DNA of 64,000 bases. Origin: Acorus gramineus (taxonomy: Eukaryota; Streptophyta; Magnoliopsida; Acorales; Acoraceae). The notes beneath the pieces are model-generated. The model saw nothing but the letters and a program-made list of their open reading frames with translations. It searched no databases and was not told where the DNA came from. Below are positions 16,001 to 52,600 of this stretch, in pieces. The position numbers and the translations under genes are program-made. The DNA is taken from the NCBI GenBank assembly GCA_030737835.1, contig CM060848.1, forward strand, positions 21,279,957 to 21,343,956, given 5' to 3'. Positions within the stretch are counted from its first letter, which is position 1. Every line of letters starts with the position of its first letter.

Positions 16001-17011
16001 CACCATGATTGGTCTGTTTGGATTGAAATCGAAGCCTGCCGCATCCTTTGCAACATTTCCACTCTTATTGTTAACCATATTGTTTAACGAATACTGCAAG
16101 ATCCGGTTCCTGCCAACGTTTTACCTCTACTCTATCCAGGTACTTTCTGAGTTTAGTAAAGAAATGTGGGCTACTTGGTAGTTGATGGATGATAGATATA
16201 CAATCATGTGATTAAGTCAATGAATTATTATGGGTATAATATATGACGGATGACCCTTGAACAATGGGTGACTGGTTCTTGTTTGGTTCGTGCCATTATT
16301 TTAAATAGATGTGCTTTACAAGTAATCATTCTACTATCAAACTGTTTAGTTTGCAGATATATTCATACCCAGATTACTTTCCATTGTTTGGTTTTTAGAA
16401 TCCCATCAATTTGGTGATATTTAAATTCAACCTTACTTCCCTTCATACCTCGATTATGAATCCAGTGGCATAGTGGCGTTCAGAGTTGCTTCCGAGAGTA
16501 CTACCAACCAAATGATGGATTTTCACTTTTTTCTTTTTCCGTAATGAATCAAAAGCCACCCTAAAAAGTATCACCAACCAAATAGGAGCTGAAAGTCATT
16601 ATGTCATGAGAACATTTTAATGTACAGTCATTTTGGTTTTCATCCTTCAGTACTATTTGGATGTGTGTTTCACCGATTGTGTCTCTTCAAATTCATCATC
16701 ATGGAGCAGTCTTGACTCTTGACTCTTAAGGCTTCTTGTCCATTTGATAAATGATATGATGAATGACCAGGTGTAGAACATATATACATATACTTTGTGT
16801 TTTCAGTATCCTGACTTATTTAAGTGGACATTCTTCTAACTATAATGCATGTTTTCAGAATGCTATGGAAATCGACGAACAAGATAAGATAGAGGGTCGA
16901 TTGGAAGAGAATTACGAGAACGCGATCGGTGCTTATCGTCCTCCTTGTTTGATTCCAATTAACTTTTCTTCAGAATCTAGCTCCATACAGCCCTTGGTCT
17001 CATCAAGCTGA
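7022..17011 (+). CDS. CSC1/OSCA-type calcium-permeable channel, RXW8-like (complete, ten exons)
   Basis: Exons: 7022-7308, 9670-9816, 10567-10630, 11128-11340, 12726-12920, 13427-13725, 14321-14600, 15184-15462, 15906-16139, 16859-17011. These sum to 2151 nt and 716 aa with all phases closing. OSCA/CSC1 proteins are membrane ion channels related to TMEM16/TMC, gated by osmotic or mechanical stress. The N-terminus (LLASAGINIGLAVLILSLFSVF) is the first membrane helix. Two more follow, at about residues 98-120 and 147-165. Residues about 170-330 are the hydrophilic cytosolic loop, with an RRM-like half (TILVRGIPV) and a Cys pair (ILCGLC). From about residue 355 there are some eight helices forming the DUF221/RSN1_7TM core, including NTFIYVVPYAM and GFSLEILQLGLIVWHF. 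The C-terminus is a short acidic, Ser-rich tail. The start fits family length, and the N-terminus resembles Arabidopsis RXW8. Exon 1 is GC-rich. Intron 1 (2.36 kb) carries two MITEs. Confidence 0.93.
7368..7803. mobile_element. MITE family A, copy 1 (in channel gene intron 1)
   Basis: It starts CCCCGATTGGGTAG and ends CATCCAAACAGGGGG, an imperfect inverted repeat. Interior motifs gtaataatgaagtttttatt, attgtttgattgataa and gatttaataaaggtgataac recur in copies at 8783, 17589 and 41031. No reading frame. The superfamily is unassigned because no clear target duplication was found. Confidence 0.6.
8039..8390. repeat. Low-complexity purine-to-pyrimidine switch block
   Basis: A 12-base C run (8039-8050) is followed by a G/A-rich half (8100-8200, GGGAGG and GAGAGA units) and then a C/T-rich half (8210-8375, CTCTCT and CCACC units). 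The halves are loosely complementary, so the block could fold back on itself. Open frames here (up to 171 codons, both strands) are low-complexity shadows. It lies inside intron 1 of the channel gene. Confidence 0.65.
8783..9203. mobile_element. MITE family A, copy 2 (in channel gene intron 1)
   Basis: The left end is CCCCCGTTTTGGATAGAG and the right end is an imperfect inverse (attctccaaccaaccg). It shares the interior tattctagtataaataagga, gaaacataatgataaagttt and agttgatttaacagtg motifs with the other family A copies. Non-coding. Confidence 0.6.
9476..9492 (+). repeat. 17-base poly-C run
   Basis: Uninterrupted C run in intron 1 of the channel gene. It is one of five C runs of 12-17 bases in the window, all on the + strand (also about 6379, 8039, 26032 and 28579). 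Confidence 0.85.
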
Positions 17012-17588
17012 GATTGCTCCAGGCTCGGTAACTGCGATTTAGTCGCAAACCCTTTGAGTCACACAGTTAGCCAGCTTTTATTCTGATTTTTTTTATAGTG
17101 TGTTTGTGATTACTGCTTCAGTTGCATTTTACCTTTGAAATTATTTCATTGTACCACAACAGGCCAAATGTCAAAATTTTCAACATGGAAAGCATAGGAT
17201 TAGATATGATTAGTTCAATGTGGGGAACACATGCAACCTAATGGAGTGTGCTTTTAGTTTCAGATGGTCTTGTAAACTGTAATAGTGACCTGGCTGAACA
17301 AGAAATAAAAAAGGCTGGTAGAAGTATAAGATATTGTGTTACATGTTTTATAACCCTACTGTGTATGTGGAAATCACATAACTATGAGTGTCATATGTGA
17401 TGCATATATTTGGATGATGTTATGTACAGCTTCACATGTAGTTCTTGCATGTTTTTAAATTTCTTTTAAAAGTGAAATTTATTGATGCAGCTGTGTAGGC
17501 TTTAGAAAGTGAAGAACCACAAAGTAGAGGACTCTTATTGCTCAACACCACAAAAAATAGTTGGAACAAAGGATCTTTTTATACTATT
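17012..17588 (+). other. 3' untranslated region and flank of the channel gene
   Basis: Non-coding sequence after the TGA at 17009. A-rich signals (agaaataaaaaagg near 17303) could serve polyadenylation. No other feature is seen. Confidence 0.4.
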
Positions 17589-17820
17589 CCCCCATTTGGA
17601 TAGATAAGTTATTTTAAGGCTTATGACTATTCTAATATAAATAAAGATAAAATGATTTTTGTTTGATTTATTTTGAATTAGGCAATAAAGTTTTTGTTAT
17701 TTAAATAAAATTTGAATGAGGTGGATAACCATTTATAAAATGTGAAAAAATGATGGACAATTGATTTAACAGTTAACAACTTTTGGATTGAATGACCTGG
17801 AATAACTTAAAATGAGAAAT
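17589..17820. mobile_element. MITE family A, copy 3 (right end lost)
   Basis: It starts CCCCCATTTGGATAGATAAG and carries the shared gactattctaatataaataa, aataaagtttttgtta and gatttaacagtt motifs. The right terminal repeat is not found, so this copy is truncated or decayed. Confidence 0.6.
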
Positions 17821-18252
17821 TTGTTTTTATATTCGTTAATAAATAGCATCTTCTTTATAAAAATGGAAAATTCATTATAGGTTTTTTTTTTTTTAAAAGA
17901 AAAATTATTTTTTTAGTTCATGGACTGTCAAGCCTTAGAAAAACTCATAATATTAACTATTTATTTTATCTAGATCCTTTGACTAATGGTCAATCTATTT
18001 TACATCCAAAGTAATTTTTGTGTTTTATAATTTAATCTTTTTTTTTTAATATAAAACCTGCTACCAATACTTTTATTGTTAAAAGAGTAGTTACAATTAT
18101 GAATTAACACTAATGATTTATCCCCTTTAGAAGGAGACACTCTTAGCTCTGGAGATATCACATCCCCGCTCGCTCTATGATGAATGAGGCCAAACTCTCG
18201 ATGTTGCCAAACTCTTTTGTGACCTGCAAACAAAAGAGACATGTAATATTGT

Positions 18253-18410
18253 TGTGAAATGTGATTTATTTTTAAGTTCCTGTAAACTATGTTATTTAAT
18301 TATTAATCCCTATATTTTATAGGAACTAATCATTAAATAACACATTTTACAGGGACTGATCACTAAATAACATAGTTTATAGGAACTTAAAAATAAATTT
18401 ACATTTCACA
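18253..18410. repeat. Short inverted repeat, arms about 46 bp, possible foldback remnant
   Basis: The left arm (18253-18298, starting TGTGAAATGTGATTTATTTT) is matched by the inverse at 18364-18410 with about three differences. The 65-bp loop holds a further 'taattattaa(t)ccctata' / 'agggactgatcactaaataa' repeat pattern. This resembles the degenerate tails of plant DNA transposons, but the family is not identified. Confidence 0.6.
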
Positions 18411-18617
18411 AATTAACGGTGTATGGACGGGGATGTTTGACAGAGGGACTAAAAATCAAATAGGCGATTGAATATAGGGTCTAAAAAAAATATGAAGAAG
18501 TGAGAGACCGATCTCTAAATACACATATATTTACGTGGACTTAAAACTAAAAATCCCTGAATAAATTTAATAAGCGAAACCGACAGAAGTCACATCAGTC
18601 TGTTTATTATACACGCT

Positions 18618-18634
18618 CACGTGACTCTCACGTG
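18618..18634 (+). promoter_or_regulatory. Tandem G-box pair upstream of the PMT gene
   Basis: Two copies of the perfect palindrome TCACGTGA (CACGTG cores at 18618-18623 and 18629-18634) are spaced 11 bp apart, about 85-100 bp before the ATG. G-boxes bind bHLH and bZIP factors in plants. A weak TATA-like TATTATAC lies just upstream, at about 18605, so the boxes sit in the core promoter or start of the leader. Regulation by light or ABA would be inference. Confidence 0.55.
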
Positions 18635-18698
18635 ATCGACTCTCTCCCGAGACACACCGAACCTCCGCTTCTCCACCAACTCACGCTCTACTCGATCG

Positions 18699-18713
18699 AG
18701 AGAGAGAGAGAGA
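18699..18713 (+). repeat. (GA)n tract in the PMT leader
   Basis: Seven to eight GA units end six bases before the ATG at 18719. GA repeats in plant leaders can bind BPC/GAGA factors; here that is only a possibility. Confidence 0.7.
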
Positions 18714-18718
18714 CGGAG

Positions 18719-21700
18719 ATGGCGATGTTGTCGGCGTTCGATTCGAGGTCGTCTCGTCTGGCTCTGGTTGCTCTAATAGTGATCATCGGCTCCTTCTACG
18801 CCGGCACCCTCTCCGGTCCCAAACCCTCCCTCGTCGTCCATCGATCCCCCCCTCTCATCTCTCTCGATCTCGAACCACAGATCAAGAACAAGGTCTCCCT
18901 CACCTACAGAGGCGAATCCCTTCGGATCCCCCCAACCGGGGTCGACGTCTGCCCCCTACCCTTCAACGAGCACATCCCCTGCCATGACTTGCCTCACATC
19001 AAGCTCTTGTTCCCCGACATGGATCTCGCCGGGACTAGGGCGCTTGAGAGGCATTGCCCCCCTTTCGAGAAGCGGTTGTTTTGCTTGGTGCCTCCGCCGG
19101 TGGACTACAGGGTGCCGATCAGGTGGCCGGTGAGCAGGGACTACGTGTGGAGGGGAAATGTGAACCATTCGCGTCTCGCGGAGGTGAAGGGCGGGCAGAA
19201 CTGGGTGCACGAGAAGGGCGAGCTTTGGTGGTTCCCCGGCGGTGGCACGCATTTCAAGCATGGGGCGGATGAGTACATCCAGAGGTAAAAACACCTTGTT
19301 GGTTTATGCAATCGTGACATGGTTGGTGTTTCTGTTCTAAGTTTGGGTTTCTATAGTTGTTTTTATATGTGATTGAAATTTGAGTGAGATGGGAGTACAA
19401 GAAAATTTGATTGCTTTTCATGTATGTTGAGCAGATATGTGGGTCAAGTTTTGCCTATTTCTTCTTTGGTGTACATGGAATGACTTCTTTTTTTGAGGTG
19501 CCAATTGAATTGGCGCTTTGGCACTTGTCCAAAGTTATATTTTGGCATCCACTATTAGTAATTTATATTTGTGTGCAATTGTTGAACATTGAGAAGGAGA
19601 TTTGAATTGACGTTGTTTATTGGTGGAAAGGTGGGATCTCAAAAGTTGAATTTTATGAAACATTAAAAAAGAAGAGGAGAACTTCAAACTGAAGAACTAA
19701 CATAATGTTTTCCTTCTTTGTGTCATGTCTCATATGTACGTAACTTCGTTGATCTGACCCATCTCAATTAGTAAGTTTTGTAGTCTGCCTTCTATGACAT
19801 GTGTTATTGCTGTGTCTAGTTGGCCACCAAGAGGATCCTTTTATGGCTAATTAGCAAACTAGATGATGAAACTTGCTCATCCCAGGGCAAGTAGCATATG
19901 GCATGATGTTTGTACCCATATTAGAGCCCTTCACTATTTCAAGATAACTAGTGTTCTTATATCATGTGGATATTGTCATATTGAGCAGATTTCAGTCCAT
20001 ATGGGTATCATAACTCATATGGCGGAGAGAAGGGTTTCTTGGGACCCGATTTATTCATGGATGAAATGTGAAGCCAATAGAATTTTCTTCAAGCTTCCTT
20101 TATTTGTAAAGTTGTTGATACTTTTTTTTTACGCTTTGTAATACAAATCAAATATTGCATTTTCCTTATACTGAGTGTAAGATTGACACAAGCTTCAAAC
20201 TTTTCATGCTTCGTCTTGGTCATATGTCTTGTTAAATTTTCTATGAAAAGTTTCACTAGCTGTCATTGTCTACTAGTCACCAAAAACTTTGCATGATGTT
20301 GCAGGTTAGGAAATATGATAACTAGTAATGCAGGAGATTTGCGAAGTGCAGGGGTCGTTCAAGTTTTGGACATTGGCTGTGGAGTTGCCAGTTTTTCGGC
20401 TTATTTACTCCCCCTTGATATACAGACAATGTCTATTGCTCCCAAGGATGGCCATGAAAATCAAATTCAATTTGCTCTAGAGCGAGGAATCAGTGCAATG
20501 ATTTCTGTTTTATCCACAAAACAGCTCCCATTGCCCAGAAGCTCATTTGAGATGGTTCATTGTTCACGTTGTCGTGTTGATTGGCATGAGAATGGTATTT
20601 AGTCCTATCTGGTTATCTTTTTTTTTTTTTGTCAGGTATATATAAAATTACATTTTTCTATCTTCTTTTGTCAGCGCACGTCATGGATGATTTCTTTCTC
20701 TCTCTGGAATTTTATGCTGATCACAGTATGCGTATCAAGTATATAAAGATAATAATCTGGGATGTTTCTTCTAAGATTCAGTGGTGAATAAAAAACTATA
20801 AGTCTGTTACATTTAATAGTTCTGGAAGTGACATCACAGATGTCATCATGTCACTATTGGTGTGGTTACCAATAAAGCTATTGATTGTAGTATCGGAACC
20901 TTATAAACAAATATAATCAGGTATGTTCTATATTGTATCCAAAGGAATCTGTGGTTATGATAAATTCTGGTACTTCATTTTTGTTGGTTACACCTGTACT
21001 TCTTCCTACTCCGCATTCTGCATAAGATATTCCTGTAAAATCTTTTAATTATGATAAAGTTTCCCTAGGATTTGAAGTATCTATACTTCATTCCCATCCT
21101 GTATCTAGCATAAATAGCATCATGCACATGCAATACACGCTGTAGTGGTGGGTCAATGATTTAGTGTTTATACAAGCATCTTGTAATATCTTATGGGATG
21201 ATGCATGTATAATGACTTTCATTTTCTTTTTTGCACAGAAGAAATAACAAGATGTAATAATAAAGTACCATGCATGATCAAGAATGTAGCATATATTCTT
21301 TTTATCGGTAACTAATTTCTCAAAGCTAATAAATTTGGGCATGTATTATCTGTGAATCTCCTCCACCAGGAAGCTTATGCTGTTTCAGTAAAGTCATTGT
21401 ATACATTGCTAATGCTTGAAATATACTCTTTGAGACAATTAGTCATGAAAGTTTTGGATTGCAGATGGTATCCTGCTCAAAGAAATAGATCGTCTATTAC
21501 GCCCCAATGGATACTTTGTGTACTCAGCTCCTCCTGCTTATAAGAAAGAAAAAGAATTCCCAATAATTTGGGAGAAGTTGATAAAACTGACAAGTGCCAT
21601 GTGCTGGGAGCTCATAGCACAGAAAGTTCAAACTGCAATCTGGCGCAAACCTGCAAATGATTCATGCCAATTGCAAAATGCAGAAAGGAAACTTTTGGAT

Positions 21701-23354
21701 ATGTGTGAAGCTATGGAAGAATCAAACCCATCATGGGAAACACCATTAATGAACTGTATAGTTCCATACAGTGAACCAGTGGATTCTCAGAAACTCCCCC
21801 CAAGACCAGAACGCCTTTCAGTGTTTTCCAAGAGACTTGAGAAAATAGGTTAGTTATTTTTTTAGCTTTGTTTGCCTTGAATGCCTATTTCTATTAATTT
21901 TTATGATTAATATTTGTATATAGCCAAATTTATGTCATCTTTTTTGTGATTGGTAATTCTTTAAGCCTCAGAGTTAAGGATGAGAAAACAATGGCTATGT
22001 TCTCCATTGCTCATAAATCGACCCGCAATATGAACTATTTCAAAATTCTATGTCGACACATTCGATGGAGTACCTAAATAAAGGTTAAGGACTTGTTTTC
22101 AAAATATTCTGCATTAGGGCCCCTAACCTGGACATGCATATTGCAAAACTTGGCATATTTATGTGTGAAATAATGGTATTAAAGTTGAGCAACTGCACTA
22201 AATATTCTGCAATATGAATTTTTCATGCATCACAATCAGCTTCTTCTTCTCTCTCTCTTTTTTTTTTTTTCATACACTATGCAAATGAATACTGTTTTGA
22301 TAGCAAATGTTATTCCCCTGCTGTTTATCATTTTCTTTATGACAATAATCATGTCTAATTGGAAGCATTTCATTTTTTTGTTGGCCTTTGGAAAGGAGTT
22401 TTTATTTACAATAATATTAACATGTTCTCAACAGGAGTTAATCTAGATACATATAACTTAAATACCAGATTTTGGCAAGAGCAAATTCAACACTATTGGA
22501 AGTTGATGGGTGTCAATCAAAGGGAGATTAGAAATGTCATGGACATGAATGCATACTACGGTGGATTTGCTGCGGCTCTGAGTTCGTTTCCTTTGTGGGT
22601 GATGAATGTGGTTCCCACGAGAATGAATAGCACACTGTCTGCTATATATGATCGTGGCTTGATCGGTGCTTTTCATGACTGGTGAGGTTCAAATTATTAT
22701 AAATATTATTATTATTTTTTATACTAATTCATTAGAAGATTGTTGGTGATGTTATGCTGTAACCCTTCACTCAGGTGTGAGCCCTTTTCGACATATCCAC
22801 GTACTTATGATCTACTACATGCCTCTCGTCTCTTTTCTCTCTATAAAGGAGGAAAGGAAGGTTGCTTAGTAGAAGATATCCTGTTAGAGATGGACCGCAT
22901 GGTTCGCCCACAGGTACTGTCTTATCAGTCATAATTTTGAATGACATTTTTATTATAGATAGAGATGGATTTTCCTTTGATTAATTGAGATACTATGGGA
23001 AATACATGGATCTATTTCCTTAGAAGACTTAAGTAGAATTATTAATGTATGCCAAGCTATTTTGGGTGAACCTGGAAGGCCTCCAAGGGAAAAGTAGTAG
23101 ACTCCCTAACTGTCGTCATACATTGGATTGTGAATTTATTGATCTATGAACATCCTTGATTGCAAGCAATTGAGCTTTCAAGTTTTGACTTGCAGGGTGT
23201 TATAATTATTCGAGATGAAGAATCCATTGTGTCCCACATCCACGATATCGCTCCTAAGTTCCTTTGGAATGTTGAATCACATACACTGGATGATGAACAG
23301 GGGAAGATGGAGCATGTCCTAGTTTGTAGGAAAACATTTTGGGCTATAGTCTAA
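18719..23354 (+). CDS. Golgi SAM-dependent methyltransferase, PMT6/PMT7 type (complete, six exons)
   Basis: Exons: 18719-19284, 20305-20594, 21465-21848, 22435-22681, 22775-22913, 23196-23354. Total 1785 nt, 594 aa, phases all close, TAA at 23352. It belongs to the plant putative pectin methyltransferase (DUF248) family: type II Golgi membrane proteins thought to methylate pectin during synthesis. A short cytosolic tail and one membrane helix (about residues 13-30, [16 protein letters not shown]) precede the lumenal domain. Family marks in order: [45 protein letters not shown], the SAM-binding motif [11 protein letters not shown] (from about residue 209), [60 protein letters not shown] and IIIRDEES. 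The short stem and C-terminal CRKTFWAIV are closest to PMT6/PMT7 as I know them. The frame stays open upstream, but the first ATG (MAML) fits the family. The substrate is not proven by sequence. Confidence 0.94.
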
Positions 23355-24759
23355 GGTATGCTATCTTTGACATTTGTTGAATGGCTTTTGTCTTGCCCAA
23401 TGTTTTTTGGTGCCTGTTGTGTGTCTGAGCTGGAGTATGGTAGATCTAGTTTAAACTTCCAATCTTTTTTTTTCCTCATTTTTAAGTTCGATGATTCATT
23501 CTATAAATTATTGTCAGACACAATCTCTTGCGAAAGCATCAATGAATTGTTCATTTATACCCAGTATGTTATATGTATTCGGCCACTTCAACCGATCTTC
23601 GACTTTGACTTTCATCTTCCTCGTGCATAATTGCTGACTAACTTTACCTCCCAACTTGATAACTAAAAAGCGCTACACTTTGAGGATGAGATCCGGTCAG
23701 TATTAGATCTCATATGTTCTCATGAGTCCTCGCATGACATGCGTCACCTCACATGTTTAACAATTGAACATTTGAGGCTATGATAATTTTTCACGTGCCA
23801 GTTTTACATTGGAGACTAAAAGAGAACTGATGAAATCCAAAGTTTGCATGTTTGCTCGTCCCAACAACACTAACAAATCAGTAACAATTCTGCATTTGTT
23901 TTTTTCAGGTTCAAACATGACTATTACTAAGAGCTAGGCTTCCTCAGATGTAAGAAACCACTTTCACTACTCAGTGCCTGGATTTTTTTTTCTTGAAAAA
24001 TTTATTTAAACCAATGATTCATTTATTCCTAAGTGCTTGTCTAAGTTACAATTTTACGAACATTTATGCATCATTCCCAAATGCTTGCTTATCAGTTATC
24101 ACCAGAGAGCTCAGTAGTAACAACCCAAGTCACATACATAACACATGAATGTTCATGTCAGCAATTTAAATTAACTGACATGGTGTTATAAATAGGTGTA
24201 CGTGAATAGTTTTTTTGTATTTTTTTATAATTTCATTGAAATGTAAAAGTTATGTCTTTGTTGTTTGGTTTATAATTTTTTAAATAACATTTTTTTTATT
24301 GTATAAGTTTGTGTTTGGAAATACGTCAGGTATATTTTAGAATGTATGTTAAAACGTGTGAGATAATTCCAGCCTTTCCTTTGAATTATTATTGAAGTTA
24401 ATGATCCTGATATGGAATGGCCAGAGTTTTATTTATTTGAATAAAAACAAGGAGCTTTTTTGAGGCCGGGTCATATCCGAAGTGTTTGCTACACAAAAAT
24501 AACGGTACTATGTGATACAAAAGAAATGATAAAAATAAAAAAAAATATTTTAAAACCAAAAACATTTATGGTAATTTAAAAGGTGTTATTTGTAATTCTT
24601 ATTTGTAGTTTTGCGTGCAATATTATATCCGCAATGGGATACATACTTTTATTAGAGGAAACACACGCACTGAGACACACACACACATATATATATACAC
24701 ACACACTTCTTAGAACAATGTTAACACACTCAATTCTTGTAGTTCACTATGGATATTTA
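23355..24759. other. PMT 3' flank and AT-rich intergenic DNA
   Basis: No gene recognised. It holds the likely 3' untranslated region of the PMT gene and a CA/TA microsatellite at about 24675-24705. The short open frames here show no family resemblance. Confidence 0.5.
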
Positions 24760-24973
24760 GGGTGTGTTTAGTTGCACGATTGCAATCGCAAACGCTGTGC
24801 AATCGTGTAACCAAACAGTTTTACTGTAACAGCTTCTTGCACACAGATTTTAGACAAATAGTGCTTAAAAGCTGTAATTTTAAAAAACTGAGAAAGTGAG
24901 TTTCTTGCAGAATCAGTTTTAAAATCCAGATTCCTACAAAATCAATTTTGTAATCACGCAACCAAACACACTC
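24760..24973. mobile_element. Tourist-like (PIF/Harbinger) MITE
   Basis: The left end GGGTGTGTTTAGTTGCACG and right end CGCAACCAAACACACTC form inverted repeats. The 214-bp element is flanked on both sides by TTA (24757-24759 and 24974-24976), the usual Tourist target duplication. The GGG-GTGTTTGG style end is typical of this group. No reading frame. Confidence 0.8.
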
Positions 24974-25003
24974 TTAAATTCAAACACCATACAATATCAT
25001 GAT

Positions 25004-25469
25004 TTGGGGTGCAACTTTGGTCGATTAAATCTGAACTGATACAAACCAATTTTTTTCGGGTTTGGGTTAATAGATTTTTTGTTTTGTTTGGATATGAATT
25101 GAGAAATTAATAAACTAATCTACTTTTATTTAGATTTACTTTAAAAAAATCTGAATTAATCGTGAATCAAATTAAATTTAAACACATAATCAATATGATT
25201 TAGATCATTTTTTTATATACTATATATTGTTATTACATCATTAATATTCATAGCAAATAAATACAAATTTATACCATCATAGTATTTTGATATTTATATA
25301 AAGCTATAACCAAACCCTAAAAAAAAAAGTACATATATGTTTATCTTTAACAGTTTGGTCCAGTTTGAATTAACCAAACAAAATTCAATTTGGTTATTAG
25401 TTTACACGTGATTATAATTTGATTCAATATGGATTTACAAAAAATCAAACCAATTGAATTGCACCCCTA
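25004..25469. mobile_element. hAT-like non-autonomous element
   Basis: The ends are TTGGGGTGCAACTT and GAATTGCACCCCTA (inverted repeats). They are flanked by ATCATGAT (24996-25003) and ATCACAAT (25470-25477), an 8-bp duplication with two transition differences. The AT-rich body contains opposed ctgaactgatacaaacc and ggttattagtttacacg style subterminal repeats and no transposase. Confidence 0.68.
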
Positions 25470-25619
25470 ATCACAATCTAAACTAACCAACTGGATAATT
25501 AAGCTAGCCACTTAAAATTAGAAACCCATTATTGTCATCAAAACAATTATCCCTTCCCTCCACCCATTTACATCAAATTTCCATCCCACCAACCCAACCA
25601 AAATAAAACCCTTGCACTG

Positions 25620-38588: not shown

Positions 38589-41030
38589 GGGAGGGGTATA
38601 ATGGGAAGATTTTTTTTTTCAGAGGGGTGTTTTGTAAATTGTATAGAATTTTGGTGTGTGTTTCTCAGTGTTTGTGTGTATCTTGGTCGTTTGTTTGTTT
38701 ATAATATATATTTTTTTGTTATTGTGAATGAATGAAGTATTAATGGTTCTTTTTAATTGATTATTGCTCCCGTGATCCAGTCTCCAAGAAAACGATTATA
38801 TATATTATATATATAATCAGGGGCTTTTCCATGCGAGTTTGAAAAGATTATGGGTGCGGAGGAATTTGATTTTTTTAAATTTATTTTTTAATAGAAAAAA
38901 AAAATCTGATTTTTCAAACTCGTTTTAAACAAAAAAAAAAAAAAAAAAAACTAAAGCTTAGTTAAAAATTTTTGCAAACATGTGAAGGAAAAGTTAATTT
39001 TCAAATAAAGATATCTTCATAAATTATGAATTGGTATAATTAAAAGTTAGACTAAAAATTAGGGTGGAGATAATTGTGGGCACATGGGGGGGTGGCGTGG
39101 GGTTGAGTGGAGGTTGCTTAGATAGGTGTGATAGTTAGGGCACATGTGGGACCATGGGGTTCGGGCAAAGGTTACTTACATTTTCGTACATCTTTAGAAT
39201 GTGTATTTCATATGTAGAGAATATTTGAGAGTTGGACGGTAATGAGTATATGAGTATATAGGATTGGGGAAAAGATGAATGAGGACAAAAGTCTAATTTC
39301 ATCTTAAAAAAAGAAGAAAAGAAAAGATGAATGTAAGATTTTTTTCTAATTATAAATTTATAATTGATTGATACGACACACCAAAATGAAAATCGATTAA
39401 TATTATGTTTTTATACATGATACAAATCTCATAGCAATATTTTTATATCAATATTATCTTTTACATGCAAGACATCCACTGATAAATACAGAAACACATT
39501 TACATGGATTGTCTCATACATGCGGGCATCAACTTCAACAGGTCATTCAATCAACTCCTACCTCCACTGACAGATCTCCATCAGACGGTAATAGATGCAG
39601 ACCCCTCCAGGCCTCCACTCAAGGGAAACAGTTCTAATCCAACCAACTCTCTTGTTTCTAGTCAGTGTCACTAATGTCTGTCTTTAGTAGATGATATTTT
39701 TTAGCTGTAGTTTTCCACTCAATTCCATTTCTTAGTTGCATGATCACAGGGCATTTCAAAATAATACAATAGTAAAAATAATCAAATTTAATTTAATATG
39801 ATCATCAATTTGGTCACTGGATCAGAACCCTTTAAAAAATTCAATGACAAGTTGGATACGGGGTACCTCCTTTGTTTATTGACTGAATAAGTTACTATAT
39901 TAGTATATTTGACATTATTCAAAGGGGGCGTGGATGATTTGGAAGGTGCGCAACGAGATCGTATTCAAAGGGACGAGAGTGTATCAAGAAAACATGTGGG
40001 ACATGTTTTGAGGGTGTATGTCAGATTGAGGGTGACATATTGCGAGGGCAGGGGATGTCCAATTTGGAGAAGGGATCATGCACATCACAAGGTGACTAGA
40101 TGGGCGTTGGCTTTGCTTGGTCGATTAGATGCCTCTTCTAACCCGGGCCGTGAGTTCACTCTTTTTTTTTTATGAGCTTCTTGCTTGCTCTTTTTACTAT
40201 TTTTTTTCCCCATTCAGAATTTGTAATTAGAGTTCAGGAATGCAATCGAGTAGCAAACATCTATCTTTTTATAAATAAAAAAATGTTAGAACATTGTTTT
40301 CCATAATTATATATATATAAAAATTTAATCCTCTATTTGGCATTGTTATTTTTGCATTCCACATAATAGATGTTTTTACTTGTATATCTCGTACTAATGA
40401 TAAGAATGAATTTTAAAAATAATTTTAATTTATTCAACTAAGAATTTTAATTTATTGTTTTTATGTGAATGGGGAACAATATGTTATTGTCATATGAGAA
40501 TATATGGTCTCATTGGACATTTTACTTTATCTACTTAATTTATTTTAATTTATACAATTAAGTCTCGATTTGAGGATAAAAAGTCAATTAACATTATCTA
40601 TATTCACATTTTTATAATCAAGATGAAAAAAGATAAATGTTATTCTAACATCTTTAAACCTAATTGTTAAGGGGAAAATCCAGGGAAATTTACCGCTTCA
40701 ATAATAAATTAAATAATCCTTATCTTACATTTAAAATTAAACAGTTGTTCAAATTTTATTTTGATTGTTTTTTTATGATAAAAATGTAAGTTACTCTTTA
40801 ACCAATTTTTTTTCTTCTGTCCATCACTTATGCCATAATCTAGAAACTTATCCCTCTATCAAACTTAAGTGTTAAGTGTTGATATGTCTAGCTCTAGCCC
40901 CATTTATAGCCTTAATTGATTGCGGTTTTCAGCCATTTTGAATTTTAAATATATACTTGCATAATAAAATACATTTTTTAATTTTTATAAAAAATAAAAA
41001 GATTTTTAACCAAGCATACACTACACTAAG
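38589..41030. other. Intergenic DNA after the CML gene
   Basis: It holds the CML 3' untranslated region, poly-A runs (38931-38950), a (TA)-rich palindrome at 38798-38815 and, at 39910-40170, a possible LINE fragment listed separately. Otherwise AT-rich with no gene seen. Confidence 0.45.
39905..40175 (+). mobile_element. Possible LINE (reverse-transcriptase zinc-binding region) fragment
   Basis: At 39928-39972 the frame reads AWMIWKVRNEIVFKG, which fits the W-x-I-W-x-x-R-N-x-x-x-F pattern after the zinc-binding domain of plant non-LTR retrotransposons. The frame breaks soon after. The patch is GC-richer than its surroundings. It is a short decayed remnant, and the identification rests on this one motif. 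Confidence 0.4.
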
Positions 41031-41426
41031 GTATGGTTTGGAAAGAGATATACTATTTTGGGGTTTATGACTATTCTAGGAATAGATAATTATACCACTG
41101 GAATAAATTATTTTTTGTTTGGTTGTGTTTTTAGTTATCTTCATAGGGAAACATAATAATAAAGTTTTTTGTTGTTTAATAAGCTATAGATAAAATGTGA
41201 ATAAAGATTTATAAAAGAAGATAAAATCATTTGCATCGTGGGTTTTATGATTTATTGATTTATAAGAGGTAATGAAAGTTGATTTGACATGTGAGCCACT
41301 TATTTCAGTGGAATAGATTGAAAGAAAATATAACATAATTTTATGGAAGATTTAAAATACAAATATCAACTTATTCTCATATATTCTGACACAACTATAC
41401 CTATCTATTCTTCCTCAACAAACCAT
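41031..41426. mobile_element. MITE family A, copy 4
   Basis: It starts gtatggtttggaaagagata and carries the family interior gactattctaggaatagata, gggaaacataataataaag and aaagttgatttgacatg. The right end (cctatctattcttcctcaac) resembles that of copy 1. Terminal repeats are worn. Confidence 0.55.
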
Positions 41427-41679
41427 TTTTTTTAACTTTTGAGATAAAGTTTATAATCGACTAGGAGACCGTCTTCAGACCACACATTCCAAGATTTAAT
41501 TTATTGATTGTAGAGGCAGACATGTGAATGATATTCTCTTGGGTTTGGTACAATCGTACAGCATATTTATATTTTCTTGATATCAAAGTGTTTCCAAAAA
41601 GACAAAGGCGCAACTTCCTCACACTTTCCTGCAATGTCCATTGAATTTAAAATGTATATTTACATATATTATATAATAT

Positions 41680-43342
41680 ATATATATAGAGAAGTGATTG
41701 CATGCGGACGAACGGCAGGTGCGGACTGAATATCCGTCGTCAGATTGGGGTCCATCGAATCTTACGGTGGAGATTAATCCACTAAAAAAAAACTCAACCG
41801 GATGTACCCGGTGAGTGAGAGAGACCCAATCGAGGGAAAAAAAAAAAAACGTTGCATCTCTCTCTTTCCCCTTCTGTGAAACCCTCCTCCCTACACTGCT
41901 AAATCAGATCCAAAACCCTCGAAGAACCAGATCTAAGTCAAAATCTACCAAAAAAAAATATAAAAAAAACCTCTCTCGATTGCACTCTGTTTCCCTCTCT
42001 CATCTCCTCGGTCTCTCCCTGCGGCCCCTCCTCCGTCTCCCCCAGCGTCTCCTCCGTCTCCCCACGCATCCCCCGTGCGGCCCCTCCTTCGTCTCCACCT
42101 GCGGCCCCCCCCGCGGCAACCACTGCGGCACCCTTTCAGATCGTGAGGTACGAACCCTTCTCTCTCTCTCTCTCTAAAAAATCTAGGGTTTTAAGAACTT
42201 TCTTGACATTTTTTTTCTAGGGTTTTGAAATCTAAGGTTTGAAATAATAATGTTGTCTTTATATGTTTTTATTTTGAAATCTAGGGTTTTGATTTCTATT
42301 TTTTTAGATTGATTAGATGATATGTATATTCAATCCGCACCTTGGTAATTTGGAACACAAAGTCATAATGTATGCATAGGAAACACTATATGCAGATTTC
42401 TCTGACTTGGTATTGATCCCCTTAATGGCTTCACTGCTTCCCCATTGGTGAATATTATAAATTGCATTTTTTGTGTCTAGCCATTTATTACGAATTACAT
42501 AGATTTATTCTATTTATTCTGAATGAGGGATGATTAATTCGGGTAGTATGGGGGATAATAAGGAATTTCTACCTAGTTGTTTTTGTACTTAGGCTTAAGA
42601 CATTTAAATATGGATAATCTTATCTTACAACCATTTAAAACAGGGTTATCATGGTTGGGTGAGTTCATTGTTGGTAGTTACACTGATTATTATTGTGTAA
42701 AATCTAATGTGAAATCTAATTTATCTAATTCAATATATGTTTTGCCAAATGAACATATAATTTTTGTGAAAATGGATGTTTTAATCCATAAAGTGTACAT
42801 TTAAAATAATAAAAAAAGGATGTAAGTGTAAAGTGAAAATGAATGTTGTAATTTTTCTTTGTATTCAGAGCTTTTGTATAGCTTTTGCTGTCTAGTTCAG
42901 TTATGTTTCTGTTCAGGGACATGCATTGTTGAGATTGGTCAAAGTTCCATTAAAAAAAAATTCCTTTGTTCATACTCTCTTGTTTTCTACTATGAAATAT
43001 TGAGCATTCTTTTTTTCTTCCAGGCTTGTATGATATGAGCTGAACTGTTTTGTTCTGGGCTTTCTTTTTATGCTTGGTGATTGGTGACTGAGCTATTAGA
43101 TCCTACTCAGTAATGATCTTAAATAAACATGTGTTTAGGAATTACTCACAAGGATATTTATATTTAGGAATATCCTTTCTACCTCCATATGTATGAAATG
43201 AAGCTCCATGAAATGGGGTTGTGGGAATAACTTGCAGTGTGTCTATGAAATTATTTGAATCATCTATCCTTACAAATTATTCACTCTCTTTGTTCTCTGT
43301 TTCAGGTTTAGAAGAAGGTGGTTCTGGAAGTGGTCCACATGT
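41680..43342 (+). repeat. Left arm of a 4.1-kb giant inverted repeat
   Basis: About 1.66 kb that is repeated in inverse at 44131-45790 with only scattered substitutions and short indels. From outside in it contains: an outer segment (gaagtgattgcatgcggacg, then gggtccatcgaatcttacgg); a leader-like CT-rich stretch; a GC-rich exon-like segment with repeated ctcctccgtctccc units (about 42010-42110); a possible splice donor at 42147 (gag/gtacga); a T-rich intron-like body; and an exon-like end after ctgtttcag at about 43306. A 75-codon frame (42577-42804, starting MFLYLGLRHLNMDNL) is preserved in both arms with two amino-acid differences, but I see no family. It looks like a captured gene start. 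Confidence 0.88.
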
Positions 43343-44130
43343 TTTTTTATCATGAAAATTCTTCACAATATAAACAGACCGTCAGACTTCTCCTCAGCAA
43401 CTGAACATATTCATGGAAATATTTTTCAACACGAGAAAGTGAAGATCCCCGTGGGATCATGTTCAGTTTGCTGGACATTTCATTTCAGTTTGCCCCTTGC
43501 AAGTGTTCAGCCCTTTGTGACCTTCTGCTGCTCTCTGTATACTGTTTAGGTTTAACTCTTTTGGCTTTCTGCCCTGGATTCAACTGTTATGTTCTTCTGG
43601 CTTCTATACTTTTCTCCACGAGTTCAGTTCGTTTATATCGGCAAACCGGATTGGACGGTACGTGATCGATTGGAGGTCCATCTGACGGTTTGGATTCGTT
43701 TGCGTCCATTGAAACCAAAACAATAGAACAGACAGAGAAGAAAATGGAATCCCTGAAAGAAGAATTAAAAGAGTACTTGGAGGGGAGGACTCTTTCACAG
43801 ACAATTTATATAGTCTGGACATTATTATTATTTTAGGCAATCACAAAAGAGCACTTGGAGAGGACTCTTTCACAGGCAATTTATATAGCCCGGACATTAT
43901 TATTATTTTAGGCAATCACAAATAGTACTTATTAAACTTGAAAAATGACCAGGTTAAGCATCACTTGTGAGTAAATTTTGAACAAGTGATCCCAACATTT
44001 GATAGACACACTGCAAGTTGAATCCAAAATTTAACTTTCTTGTTCAAAATCCAAAATGACCAGGTTTTAAGAACTTTCTTGTTCAAATTTTACATCAACC
44101 ATTACAAGAAGTTCTACATTGGAACTTTGC
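43343..44130. other. Spacer of the giant inverted repeat, with templated fragments
   Basis: A 788-bp spacer between the arms. It contains a two-copy tandem repeat (43771-43848 and 43849-43922, unit starting gagtacttggaggggagg). It also has short exact matches to the arms: atagacacactgcaagtt at 44002-44019 equals 44228-44245, and ggttttaagaactttcttg at 44063-44081 equals 42187-42205. The phrase aaaatgaccaggtt occurs twice within the spacer. No gene or transposase was found. Confidence 0.75.
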
Positions 44131-45790
44131 ACATGTGGACCACTTCCAGAATCACCTTCTTCTAAACCTGAAACAGAGAACAAAAGAGAGTGAATAATTT
44201 GTAAGGATAGATGATTCAAATAATTTCATAGACACACTGCAAGTTATTCCCACAACCCCATTTCATGGAGCTTCATTTCATACATATGGAGGAAGAAAGG
44301 ATATTCCTAAATATAAATATCCTTGTGAGTAATTCCTAAACATATGTTTATTTAAGATCATTACTGAGTAGGATCTAATAGCTCAGTCACCAATCACCAA
44401 GCATAAAAAGAAAGCCCAGAACAAAACAGTTCAGCTCATATCATACAAGCCTGGAAGAAAAAAAGAATGCTCAATATTTCATAGTAGAAAACAAGAGAGT
44501 ATGAACAAAGAAATTTTTTTTTAATGGAACTTTGACCAATCTCAACAATGCATGTCCCTGAACAGAAACATAACTGAACTAGACAGCAAAAGCTATACAA
44601 AAGCTCTGAATACAAAGAAAAATTACAACATTCATTTTCACTTTACACTTACATCCTTTTTTTTATTATTTTAAATGTACACTTTATGGATTAAAACATC
44701 CATTTTCACAAAAATTACATGTTCATTTGGCAAAACATATATTGAATTAGATATATTAGATTTCACATTAGATTTTACACAATAATAATCAGTGTAACTA
44801 CCAACAATGAACTCACCCAACCATGATAACCCTGTTTTAAATGGTTGTAAGATAAGATTATCCATATTTAAATGTCTTAAGCCTAAGTACAAAAACAACT
44901 AGGTAGAAATTCCTTATTATCCCCCATACTACCCGAATTAATCATCCCTTATTCAGAATAAATAGAATAAATCTATGTAATTCGTAATAAATGGCTAGAC
45001 ACAAAAAAATGCAATTTATAATATTCACCAATGGGGAAGCAGTGAAGCCATTAAGGGGATCAATACCAAGTCAGAGAAATCTGCATATAGTGTTTCCTAT
45101 GCATACATTATGACTTTGTGTTCCAAATTACCAAGGTGCGGATTGAATATACATATCATCTAATCAATCTCAAAAAATAGAAACCAAAACCCTAGATTTC
45201 AAAATAAAGACATATAAAGACAATATTATTATTTCCTAGATTTCAAAACCCTAGAAAAAAAATGTCAAGAAAGTTCTTAAAACCCTAGATTTTTGAGAGA
45301 GAGAGAGAGAAGGGTTCGTACCTCACGATCTGAGGGGGTGCCGCAGTGGTTGCCGCGGGGGGCCGCAGGTGGAGACGAAGGAGGGCCGCAGGGGGACGCG
45401 TGGGGAGACGGAGGAGGAGACGCTGGGGGAGACGGAGGAGGGGCCGCAGGGAGAGCCCGAGGAGATGAGAGAGGGAAACAGAGTGCAATTGAGAGAGGTT
45501 TTTTTTTTTTTTTTTTTTGATAGATTTTGACTTAGATCTGGTTCTTCGAGGGTTTTGGATCTGATTTAGCAGTGTAGGGAGGAGGGTTTCAGGGAAGGGG
45601 AAAGAGAGAGATGCAGCGTTTTTTTTTTTTTCCCTCGATTGGGTCTCTCTCACTCACCGGGTACATCCGGTTGAGTTTTCTTTCAGTGGATTAATCTCCA
45701 CCGTAAGATTCGATGGACCCCAATCTGACGACGGATATTCAGTCCGCACCTGCCGTTCGTCCGCAGGCAATCACTTCTATATATATATAA
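44131..45790 (-). repeat. Right arm of the giant inverted repeat
   Basis: Inverse copy of 41680-43342. Its inner edge is acatgtggaccacttccaga at 44131 and its outer edge is ggcaatcacttctatatata. Most differences from the left arm are in the A-rich and GC-rich tracts (poly-A length at 45500-45520, GC units at 45350-45460). The intron-like part is almost identical. The preserved 75-codon frame is at 44671-44898 on the minus strand. Confidence 0.88.
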
Positions 45791-46920
45791 TATGTACACA
45801 TATTTATTTATATATATGTCAAAGGAAATGAAGAGTCTGAGTAAAAATATCTTTTTTTTTTCAATCCATCTAGATTGGGATAAGGGAATACCACCTCATG
45901 AGTAAGATTCCAATCCCCTTAATCAAAGATTTCCAATCCCAATCTCTCAATTCTAATCTCCCTTTTAAAATTTAGAAAAAAATCTTCTTAACTCCGTGAA
46001 ATCTTTTTGAAATCACAAAAGTTCCTCTAAAATCAGAAAATCATCCTAGATCCCCATAAAATGTATATGGTTAACAAATTTAGTCTCCCAGTCAAGATTA
46101 TATTGAATAAGTCCTCAAAAACTTACTAAAATTTGATTCAATCCCTATAAACTTTATAAAATCAGATTTAGTTCTTTTGTAAGACAAAAATACCCCTGTC
46201 ATTTTTCAACATCTCAATGTCCTGAAATGTCATTCTCGTCTGAAAACAAAACTATGTTGAACCTCAATTGATTTACAAAATTGAGTCATTTTTCAATATT
46301 TTTCCCTTTTCAATCTCATTACAGAGATTTAAAAAAAAAAAATTACAGTTTCATTAACTCTATTAAAAAATCAGTAAAGAAAACAATTTAAAAACCAAAT
46401 CAACATTCTATAATACATTCTTAACTTAAAATTACTATCAATAAAAAGCATAATACCTCGAGTATAAAACTATAATTTGTTTAAGAAAATTTAAATAAAT
46501 CAATATATATTTTTAGATAATCACATGGATTTTTTAAGATTTTAAGAAGATTTCAGGTAGTTAAGATGATTTTTAAATTTTACAAGGATTTTTATCGATT
46601 TTCATAAATTTTCAAGGAGTTATATTGATTTTTTCTAACAAAGAAAATAATAAATTTTAAAAGGGTATAATAGTAATTTACCATGCATAGTTAGGATTAA
46701 CCACACATTGATTAGTTATATGGACTAAAATAAATATTATCTAATAAGATAGAGAGATTTGAGGGGATTTATCAATTTTATAGAATTTTTTTTTTATTTT
46801 CATAAATTTCAGAGAGATAGATCGAATTTTTTCTTAAAATTTATTTAAACAATTTATTTACTTAGGATTATGATTCTTAATACCAATCCATGCACTCAGT
46901 ACTCCTCTTCAAACAGGCTC
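45791..46920. other. AT-rich intergenic DNA and promoter region of the TFIIIC gene
   Basis: It contains (TA)-rich sequence at 45780-45830 and degenerate phrases such as ccaatcccaatctctcaattc and caaggatttttatcgatt. No gene seen. The last 150 bases presumably hold the promoter of the gene starting at 46965, but no clear TATA box is visible. Confidence 0.4.
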
Positions 46921-46956: not shown

Positions 46957-46965
46957 AAACCCTAA
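46957..46965 (+). promoter_or_regulatory. Telo-box touching the TFIIIC start codon
   Basis: AAACCCTAA, the plant telo-box, occupies the bases directly before and into the ATG (46965-46967). Telo-boxes are enriched near the transcription start of plant genes for ribosome and RNA production, which suits a Pol III factor. Function here is inferred from position only. Confidence 0.5.
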
Positions 46966-49635: not shown

Positions 49636-52600
49636 GTCTTTCATGAAATTCTTTGATAATATCAGTTTGCAGGTAAGGAACTGTCCTCAATGGATGTGTA
49701 TTTACACTCATGTAAACAGGGAGTAACCTAAACTTCCCTTGACTTGGATAGTGTTTTAGACGAGGAGTCCAGGAGGTATGAAGGCATATTTGATATAGGA
49801 TTGACATCTCTTTGACTATCCAATAAAAAATTGGTTAATTGTTTTATTTTTGAGTCAAAATAGAATATCTATTGGGGAATTAGAAAGTGCATATCTGGGA
49901 TTGTGTGGTTTTCCCTTGTATTGAAAGTTACATGAGCAAACTACTAAAATAGATACATTGACAGAATTATAACTCAAGGGGACTGAGTTTTTTTCTTGAT
50001 GCCAATGCAAAGACAAAATCACAATTTGGATGAGCTTTCTTCCCCTCCTTGCTAGAGAATCTGCCATTGCATTCCCTTTATTTGTACATGTTGAGTTGTT
50101 TTCAACCCATGTTCTCATCTTTATCATGTACAGGAATAAGGATTCAGCTTTTGTGTTAAATGGAAATCTGTGCATCACCTCTGATATCTGTTTTTTTTTT
50201 TTTCTAATGCAGAGAGCAAGGGAATATTCGTCAGGCCAGGTGGTGCCTTTCTAAAGCAATTACAGCAGACCCTAAAGACCTGACCCTTCGATTCAATCTT
50301 GCTAAACTATATTTTGAACTCGGAGATTATCAAAAAGCCGCAAAGACCTATGATCAAATAATAGGGATATGTCCTGCGAATGTTAATGCATGCAAGATGG
50401 CTGCAAAGGTTCCTTTTTCCTCCATTATATTATTAATATAATGTCAGATTTAGCTTGCTGTTGGTGACGAAAGTTAACATGTGAAACATTGTTGTTTGCA
50501 CTTTCCATCTATGGACTACTGTATATTTGCAGAAAGCTGCAAACTTGTTCATGATAAATATTTATGTACTTGTGTGCATGTGCCTCATAGGAGGGGATTA
50601 TATGAAGAACATTGGCAACTTTTGTCTTTAATTTGCTTATGCAACGAAAATGGCTGCATTGACATGTTGTAGAATTTCATATTTTTTTATATTCTTCACC
50701 AAGCTAGAAATTTTTTTCTACATATATATTATTCTACCCCGGGCCGTCTGGTACTGCATATGTGCCAGGGGAAGGAATGATGGTTTGGGGAGGAGGAGAA
50801 AACCTTTTCAACAAATTTTGCTCGGCACTGAATTTTTTTCATATGGCTTGTTCTTACTGAAAGATATATCATTTTCATTCATTGATGGATCCCTTGAGGT
50901 GAATCTGTAGCAGTATTAGCCTTAGTGGTGATATTTAGATTCAACTTTGAAACCTTCCCTTTGCTATGTTTTTGCATCTCCAGTTAGCATAGAATGCTCC
51001 CATTAACGTCATGAACTTCCTAATTTCTTGCTCATTTTATGAATTCTGTTTCAATTGCATTCTCATTCTGTCAGGGTGCAGAATTGGTATCCAGGAAAAT
51101 TTTATTTTAATAATTTTTAATTGTCTTGCTGACCTTGATTGGAAATCTCACAAATTCTGATATGCCAAAGATAGCCAAAGTAGACTTTAGAAATGTTTAG
51201 AAGATGGTAGAGCATCATTGAAGAGGATGGAAATAATTGTACCATATCATTTTTTTATTATAGAAATTGCATGAATACATGGTTGTGTGGAGTTATGATA
51301 GATTCTGTTTTTGTTTTTGATTATATGATTTTTCACTCTGATGATGTTCTAATCTTTTTTTAACTTAAATGCACATATCATTTTTTTTTTGTTTTTGTAA
51401 TTTTTGGAGAAAAAGATGGGAATGCGACCAGATTTTATAAAAAACAGTAAACATCCATGTAAACCAGTGGATACTATGTTTCTCCAAAGTGTAAAAGTAC
51501 CCATCGTTTGACTCATTTTGCTCCTCCAGTTGCTCAGTCTACCTTTGGTTATTCATTGTAGATTGGAGGGAAATAAATGACTGGCATTTCTAAATTTTTA
51601 GGTCATAGGTATAAATGCATCAAATTGTTCTGTGTACCAAAATACTAGCATGATTCCTTTACATGCATATAATAATGCATTTTTTATGCTTTATTGCACT
51701 AAATTGAGGTTTGTAATATTATTTTGAACATATTACATCTTATGTTATTGCATAGTCATTCATCTGACATATACTACATTATGATTAGTTACTATAATAT
51801 ATTTTGGCTTCTCGTGTCCATAAAATTTTTGGAAGTATGGTGTTGGGTATCTGGCACAAATATGTTATTACAGATTACCATGCATCACAGCTTCCCAATC
51901 TTAGCAGGACTAGAACCTTCTGCCAATGCCTAAATCTGAAAATTGGGTGACTATTTTATTTTTTCAGTTCACTGGTTTCTGTTAGATAGAATAGTTTGTA
52001 TTCCTAGATAAATTTAAGCATTGTACAGTGATAGAAATGAGTATTCTCTCATTGATTTCTTTCAGATGCACAGAACCTATGGCCAGATTGATAGAGCAAT
52101 TGGTATTTTGGAGGATTATGTTAAAGTTCATGCTTCAGAAGCTGACCTTGGTGTAGTTGATCTTCTTGCTGAGATGCTCATGAAAAATAAAGAGCATCTT
52201 AAAGCGCTTCAACACATTGAGTATGCTGGATCAGTGGTTTGCTCTGGCAAGGATTTACCATCATATTTGACTGTTAAGGCAGGAATGTGCCATGCTTGCC
52301 TTGGAAATCTTGAGGAGGCTCAGGTTGGAGGCCTTCTATCTTTACTCTTTATATCAATATTATTTTCTTCAGACAAGTTTGCCTACATTTCCCATCTTCT
52401 GCTAGGTGTGCTCAGTTTTCATGCTCCTTGCCAGTGTATTATGTATTCTATTCATTGTTGTGGTAACTAGACAAGCAATGTTGTATGTGCATTTACATTC
52501 TTGTGTATATGCTTACACATACCCAATGATGCGCCTGCGGTTATTCATTTATTGTGTGGATGATATTTGAGCTTGAATAGTTGATAATGAGAATTTCTTT

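Follow-up and report, generated by a model that had tools for sequence, protein, structure and literature searches.

A probable Mutator-like foldback transposon with kilobase-scale arms in TA microsatellites of Acorus gramineus

We analysed a window of 64,000 nucleotides from Acorus gramineus (GenBank assembly GCA_030737835.1, contig CM060848.1, positions 21,279,957 to 21,343,956 of the forward strand) in which a 4.1-kb element is bounded by two long terminal inverted repeats (TIRs): a left arm at 41689..43342 on the plus strand and a right arm at 44131..45777 on the minus strand, with a spacer at 43343..44130 between them. An earlier note, made from the letters alone, had described a giant, nearly perfect inverted repeat that looked like a gene start copied head to head and possibly kept alike by gene conversion, and had offered a foldback or Mutator-like element as another possibility. 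It is this last suggestion that has held up. We judge the element, at a probability of roughly 0.9, to be a non-autonomous, microsatellite-targeted foldback transposon of the Mutator-like element (MULE) type, on the strength of further copies, a common terminal motif, a TA target, an empty site and FAR1/MULE remnants in relatives.

A long inverted repeat with gene-like arms

The inverted repeat was recovered by repeat search, BLAST and MAFFT alike. BLAST aligns 41680-43342 with 45788-44131 at 97.36% identity over 1669 columns, MAFFT gives 30 substitutions at 1652 aligned sites between 41680-43342 and 44131-45788, and the repeat search returns nine inverted pairs: eight of them, 96-99% complementary, line up as arms at 41679-43342 and 44131-45789, and the ninth (71%) is an offset register within one arm. 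The length of the repeat excludes a chance origin. The TIRs measure ~1.65 kb and are 97.4% alike, their longest exact complementary runs are 195, 167 and 161 bp, and the ends of the element are palindromic. Conserved termini stand at 41689 and 45777; the outermost 9 bases of the left arm as first drawn, from 41680, are flanking TA repeat. Differences between the arms are indeed scarce in the intron-like part, as had been noticed, with 7 at the 963 sites past arm position 700 and 23 at the 689 sites before it. The spacer holds a direct repeat (43782..43922) whose two copies, 75 bp apart, are 94% alike over 66 nt.

Read from the outside inwards, the left arm begins with the conserved terminus GAGAAGTGATTGCATGCGGACGAACGGCAGGTGCGGACTGA (41689..41730, plus strand), followed by a CT/GC-rich leader (41870..42147, start approximate), which on the basis of its sequence and a match to a relative, L018, may be the 5' untranslated exon of a lost transposase gene. 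The leader runs into a splice-donor-like motif, GTGAGGTACGAAC (42143..42155 in the left arm, 448 bp from the terminal motif; 45314..45326, minus strand, in the right), with the junction GTGAG/GTACGAACC at 42143 and, on the minus strand, at 45326. An intron-like body (42148..43305 in the left arm) then leads to an acceptor-like TTTCAG/GTTTAGAAG at 43300-43314, equivalent in both arms, and to a second exon-like stretch (43306..43342). The proposed order of leader, GC-rich exon, intron-like body and second exon is thus present in the sequence of both arms, and its splicing is a prediction from these motifs.

Relatives across the assembly

Searching the assembly (398.6 Mb in 137 contigs, labelled Cnn here, with fetched loci labelled L0nn) with one arm gave 51 matches from the best 40 of 54 candidates scored, part of which were fetched. 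A full arm occurs at six further places, namely the right arm in the window, four on C30 and one on C102, and most of one arm is present on C4. The four on C30 belong to two complete foldback elements, A (16714-21170) and B (21169-25616), which lie back to back, joined by one TA run, as mirror images (98.3% over 4462 bp) in a palindromic pair of ~9 kb (L009/L010). The window copy is more distant from A and B (~96.5% over the longest shared block) than these are from one another, and the ~6 kb of flank on each side of the pair do not match each other, which argues against a larger palindrome. Because this is a single case of mirror copies at 98.3%, duplication is possible beside two insertions. 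The C30 arms reach ~1.72 kb. The window spacer is 95% identical to the C30 copies and, over its first 544 bp, 96% identical to the C4 relative; the right arm runs on through the last 48 bp of the spacer, whose left counterpart, with ~290 bp more, is missing by comparison with C30.

In the C102 element a single full arm is paired with a far end of ordinary type, the inverted ends covering 382 bp at 83%, and the element on C4 is built likewise. Within C4 lies a long insertion with TG...CA borders and a 5-bp repeat, ATATA, which by eye looks like a long terminal repeat (LTR) retrotransposon. The C4 arm also holds a second insert of ~960 bp (L012:1825-2781), with arm positions 1485-1493 on both sides, which would be a 9-bp duplication. 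The earlier note had proposed looking for other foldback copies and for a parent gene: two such copies, on C30, and the asymmetric relatives on C102 and C4 came to light, and the matches inspected included no recognisable host gene that corresponds to exon 1 or exon 2, one exon-2 match, L057, being unclassified.

Beyond these close relatives, and with up to 2 mismatches allowed, the terminal motif occurs at 59 sites in the genome and its reversed pattern at 0. By eye, the 59-site list contains 18 plus/minus pairs within 20 kb, spanning from ~215 bp (like miniature inverted-repeat transposable elements, MITEs, on C1 and C120) to 19 kb (C58). L056 and C120:49284-49498 are MITE-like relatives of ~215 bp sharing the motif. 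At the other extreme are relatives with transposase remnants: L055, bounded by the terminal motif and TA runs, carries a piece of the MULE domain PF10551 (E 2.2e-21); L058, 92-95% like L055 in two main blocks, has a FAR1-type N-terminus (~0.7 kb of L058 is masked, its right end among the masked parts); and the more decayed L018 has a FAR1 piece (E 3.8e-4, below the Pfam cut-off) and a SWIM piece (E 1.8e-5). The window element thus shows long TIRs and a terminus in common with L055 and L058, the carriers of FAR1/MULE remnants, a likeness that is limited in extent.

These remnants bear directly on what the arms contain. Of 25 sources scanned, 10 have a motif of type GTGAGGTACRAAC following a GC-rich leader (15 rows, which reduce to 13 distinct sites because of the overlap between L009 and L010). 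The motif is present in both window arms, in the arms on C30, C102 and C4, and in L026, L049, L055, L058 and L018. It lies 357-495 bp from the terminal motif in the 12 rows measured and occurs twice in the window, once per arm. In L055, L058 and L018 the transposase follows downstream of the donor-like motif and shares its strand, and because this layout recurs in three relatives, the simplest reading is that leader and donor are the 5' part of a transposase gene. On these comparisons the "gene start" of the arms is most probably the leader of the element's own transposase gene. The suggestion of a host gene start copied head to head is not supported, as leader and donor match those found ahead of the MULE transposase remnants. 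Copies of the exon-2-like stretch lie in L025, L050 and L052, which are elements with the terminal motif, and in L057; two more matches (C77 and C3:13254243) lie outside the four inspected. A reading of exon 2 as the start of the transposase frame finds no support in L018 and L058, which start otherwise (MSSAH...). Directly after the exon-2-like stretch, L052:5344-5652 and L050:4892-5059 hold a tandem repeat of ~141 bp.

Insertion into TA microsatellites

The fetched loci hold 27 distinct family ends, and at 25 of them a run of at least (TA)4 stands in the 40 bp just outside the motif. Such a run is present in ~1.2% of 20,000 random 40-mers of the window (draws inside the element were skipped). 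The C4 end lacks it, as does one of the L056 ends. In the window, (TA)n adjoins the element on both sides, as the left flank running into the insertion (41643..41688) and as a tract on the right (45778..45790). The right flank matches C3:7788772-7789770 at 96% over 1001 bp, and there, at L060, one TA run links it to 42 bp found to the left of the window element (97.6% over 42 bp, minus strand, compared by eye). L060 is an unoccupied target in a paralogous rather than an orthologous position. The right flank consists mostly of a high-copy repeat. Such a repeat occupies 45978-46800, between the element and an open reading frame (ORF) at 46965 (1393 first-look candidates, best 40 scored). On the left side, window positions 40437-41642 have a ~97% identical duplicate ~60 kb farther downstream in the contig (L059, from C2:21381700), which diverges at 41643.

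Several observations weigh against the reading as a MULE foldback. The ends of L055 are only 82.7% and 84.6% like the window arm over 52 bp, the terminal motif of L018 is degenerate (7/31 mismatches), and no carrier with closer ends turned up among the best 40 of 54 candidates in the arm search, so that this search points to no particular transposase able to move the foldback subfamily. None of eight transposase pieces matches the window element at E 1 or better, while as a control the L018 FAR1 piece finds L055 and L058 at 81-83%; outside the carriers the pieces gave two short matches, on C102 and in C30 element B (E 0.20 and 0.69). Under a strict pattern the donor-like motif is absent from L025, L050, L052, L053 and L054, all of which bear the terminal motif. 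At the insertion itself, the TA length of the left flank is, by eye, slightly unlike that of the empty site, and a target duplication of 8-11 bp is unreadable because the insertion lies within TA repeats.

Other relatives also lacked a MULE transposase on inspection by eye: the 3.1-kb L054 has no transposase ORF, and the fetched parts of the relatives on C69, C58 (mostly up to 477000) and C5 have retroelement-like ORFs and no MULE transposase. Genome searches gave 1162 candidates for PF10551 and 802 for P0001, the best 150 being scored in each case.

History of the arms and alternative explanations

Substitutions between the two arms of an element number 30, 33 and 27, and those between arms of different elements 15-39 (mean 30.7, 12 pairs). 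The low inner divergence is likewise found between elements. A tree of eight arms sets the six foldback arms apart from C102 and C4 (support 100/98) and leaves the six without resolved order among themselves. With C102 and C4 as outgroups to polarise the sites, no derived state is confined to the two window arms and one is confined to the arm pair of C30 element A. Without polarisation, two sites set the window arms together and apart from the four on C30. Private polarised substitutions number 12 in the left window arm and 5 in the right, and the indels differ too. The tree, the within- and between-element counts and the polarised sites together indicate that the inverted duplication most likely arose once, the arms then diverging largely independently.

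The asymmetric elements on C102 and C4 probably represent the progenitor form. C4 is collinear with the C30 element to about position 2621 and from there with the C102 interior, and the inverted arm of C30 begins at 2736, which places the exchange point between ~2621 and 2736. An ancestor like C102 or C4 would have been long at its transposase-side end and ordinary at its far end (in C102 the TIRs are ~380 bp). The far end would then have been lost and replaced by an inverted copy, ~1.7 kb long, of the transposase-side end with its terminus, leader, intron-like body and exon-2-like stretch, for example by template switching in gap repair, and the resulting foldback may have been mobilised by a transposase acting in trans.

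This history bears on two explanations that invoke no transposon. One is that a gene start was duplicated here in inverted orientation and its copies were homogenised by gene conversion. It would account for arms that are so similar, above all inside, and could call on the two unpolarised sites that unite the window arms and the one polarised site that unites the C30 A arms. It is scarcely credible, since the same structure stands on C30 with other flanks and an empty site exists, no polarised site is exclusive to both window arms, and the inner similarity is shared between elements, with arms differing as much within one element as between elements, which gives conversion no support. An assembly artefact, such as a chimeric foldback read or a collapsed repeat, is very improbable on the assembly sequence: the two arms carry different indels and private substitutions of their own, the flanks are joined in the empty site, and further copies occupy separate loci in different contexts.

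A foldback MULE could still have picked up host DNA in the manner of a Pack-MULE, its inner arm being a host gene fragment. Arm positions 1169-1391 (223 bp; 42848..43070, plus strand, in the left arm) are 85% identical to DNA ~0.6 kb past the end of a host ORF at L016 (from C5:7111500) and L017 (from C5:6939500). These two copies agree at 98% over 7 kb and are separated by ~172 kb; two ORFs of that locus gave no Pfam match. Inner arm positions 1162-1663 are also 90% identical to the interior of L014, an element with 470-bp inverted ends, and parts overlapping the 223-bp stretch recur in L014 and L015, two elements with inverted ends. The resemblance of these 223 bp to DNA beyond the host ORF leaves room for an old capture. 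But the match to the host locus is limited to those 223 bp and lies outside the ORF, showing neither gene membership nor direction of transfer, and three of the four inspected exon-2-like matches (L025, L050, L052) lie within terminal-motif elements. We consider capture unlikely, if worth keeping in mind. The captured gene fragment of the earlier note may apply to the 223 bp of the inner arm and is not supported for the transposase-linked leader and donor.

A possible source of hairpin RNA

If the arms hold active promoters, these would face inwards, and read-through would yield a hairpin RNA. The element might then act as a mobile silencer in the manner of maize Mu killer, its small RNAs silencing MULE relatives through the common terminus and leader. 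Its layout fits the description of Mu killer as an inverted duplication of a transposase-adjacent terminus with a ~4-kb hairpin (PMC3440606), and the long exact complementary runs between its arms agree with this. We compared exact 21-mers across 26 loci, dropping low-complexity words. The arms have 1016 in common with C102, 975 with C4 and 30 with the L018 leader, but 0 with the better-kept carriers L055 and L058 (~0.7 kb of L058 masked); the arms hold no recognisable transposase coding, unlike Mu killer, and the Mu killer paper ties silencing to two short antisense transcripts, with the long hairpin not excluded (PMC3440606). We judge such silencing unlikely.

Elsewhere, 21-mers in common with the arms number 4584 in L009 (C30), 73 in L014, 14 in L015, 10 each in L016 and L017, 6 in L025, 5 each in L049 and L026, 4 in L024, 2 in L057 and 1 in L019, and 12 of the 26 loci, L055 and L058 included, have none. 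If small RNAs exist, their best targets would be the foldback subfamily with C102 and C4, followed by L014 and the L018 leader, the host locus being marginal. It is rather improbable that a MULE family has recast its own transposase promoter and leader as a transposing, parasitic inverted repeat whose small RNAs act on its own family and on the 223-bp host locus; if true, this would amount to a Mu-killer-like element spreading as a transposon.

A single assembly here contains an unusually large foldback, microsatellite-targeted MULE, its probable asymmetric progenitors and an empty site, which lets the change from an ordinary to a hairpin-forming MULE be traced in its stages. If transcribed, the element would offer a natural test of how Mu-killer-like silencers originate and of whether they are able to spread as transposons.

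The neighbouring gene

An ORF with its ATG at 46965 starts 1.19 kb past the element, a further ORF at 49235-49537 matches TPR repeats, and the stretch 52060-52350 has no domain match. The element had been said to end about 1.2 kb before a TFIIIC gene; the distance to the ORF agrees, and the TPR matches do not by themselves establish a TFIIIC identity.

Comparison with known systems

MULEs that target microsatellites are already known in MuTAnT (PMC4486113) and SaTar (PMC5907723). In the open-licence literature, screened by titles and the starts of abstracts and by the best entries of longer lists, we found no description of a kilobase-scale foldback MULE in TA microsatellites. The SaTar elements, non-autonomous microsatellite-targeted MULEs of guayule and rice (PMC5907723), resemble the window element in their TIRs, their (TA)n flanks and a terminus related to transposase-bearing MULEs, and C30 elements A and B lie end to end and non-nested, an arrangement that may be SaTar-like or, in this one case of mirror copies at 98.3%, may come from duplication. 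SaTar elements differ in size: those of guayule span 380-1120 bp with TIRs of 40-250 bp in the paper's table and ~400 to 1700 bp in its text, and those of rice 380-1900 bp (PMC5907723), whereas the window element reaches 4.1 kb and its TIRs ~1.65 kb (in C30, 1.72 kb). The main text of that paper uses neither "foldback" nor "hairpin". MuTAnT of Medicago (PMC4486113) is also a MULE with foldback arms and a (TA)n target, and has a related element with a Jittery-like transposase; by eye its terminal mask GGGGTTTGCTAGAACA fails on the window terminus GAGAAGTGATTGC..., and 90% of its copies are 200-300 bp long with a mean TIR of 47 bp, against 4.1 kb and ~1.65 kb in the window.

Mu killer (PMC3440606) offers the closest parallel in build, with both ends derived from the transposase-side terminus, an inverted duplication and a proposed hairpin of ~4 kb; a like origin of both ends of the window element is suggested because its leader matches the transposase carriers. 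Mu killer, however, holds partial mudrA copies, whereas no transposase coding was found in the window arms, and it is a locus known to silence (PMC3440606), whereas the window element is multi-copy and at most a putative silencer. The multiple-long-TIR MULEs of tomato and other plants (PMC3310237), whose TIRs are said to contain promoters, likewise involve duplication of a MULE end, but there the entire TIR is duplicated, while in the window element the long end, copied in inverted orientation, seems to have taken the place of the opposite terminus. The FARE/Foldback elements have long palindromic ends and are classed with MULEs (cited in PMC4486113), a comparison made by description, and the barley MULEs, as far as described, are not close. 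Microsatellite-targeted foldback MULEs are therefore known as a group, and the window element, judged by its sequence, is a variant of them distinguished by its length of 4.1 kb and its TIRs of ~1.65 kb.

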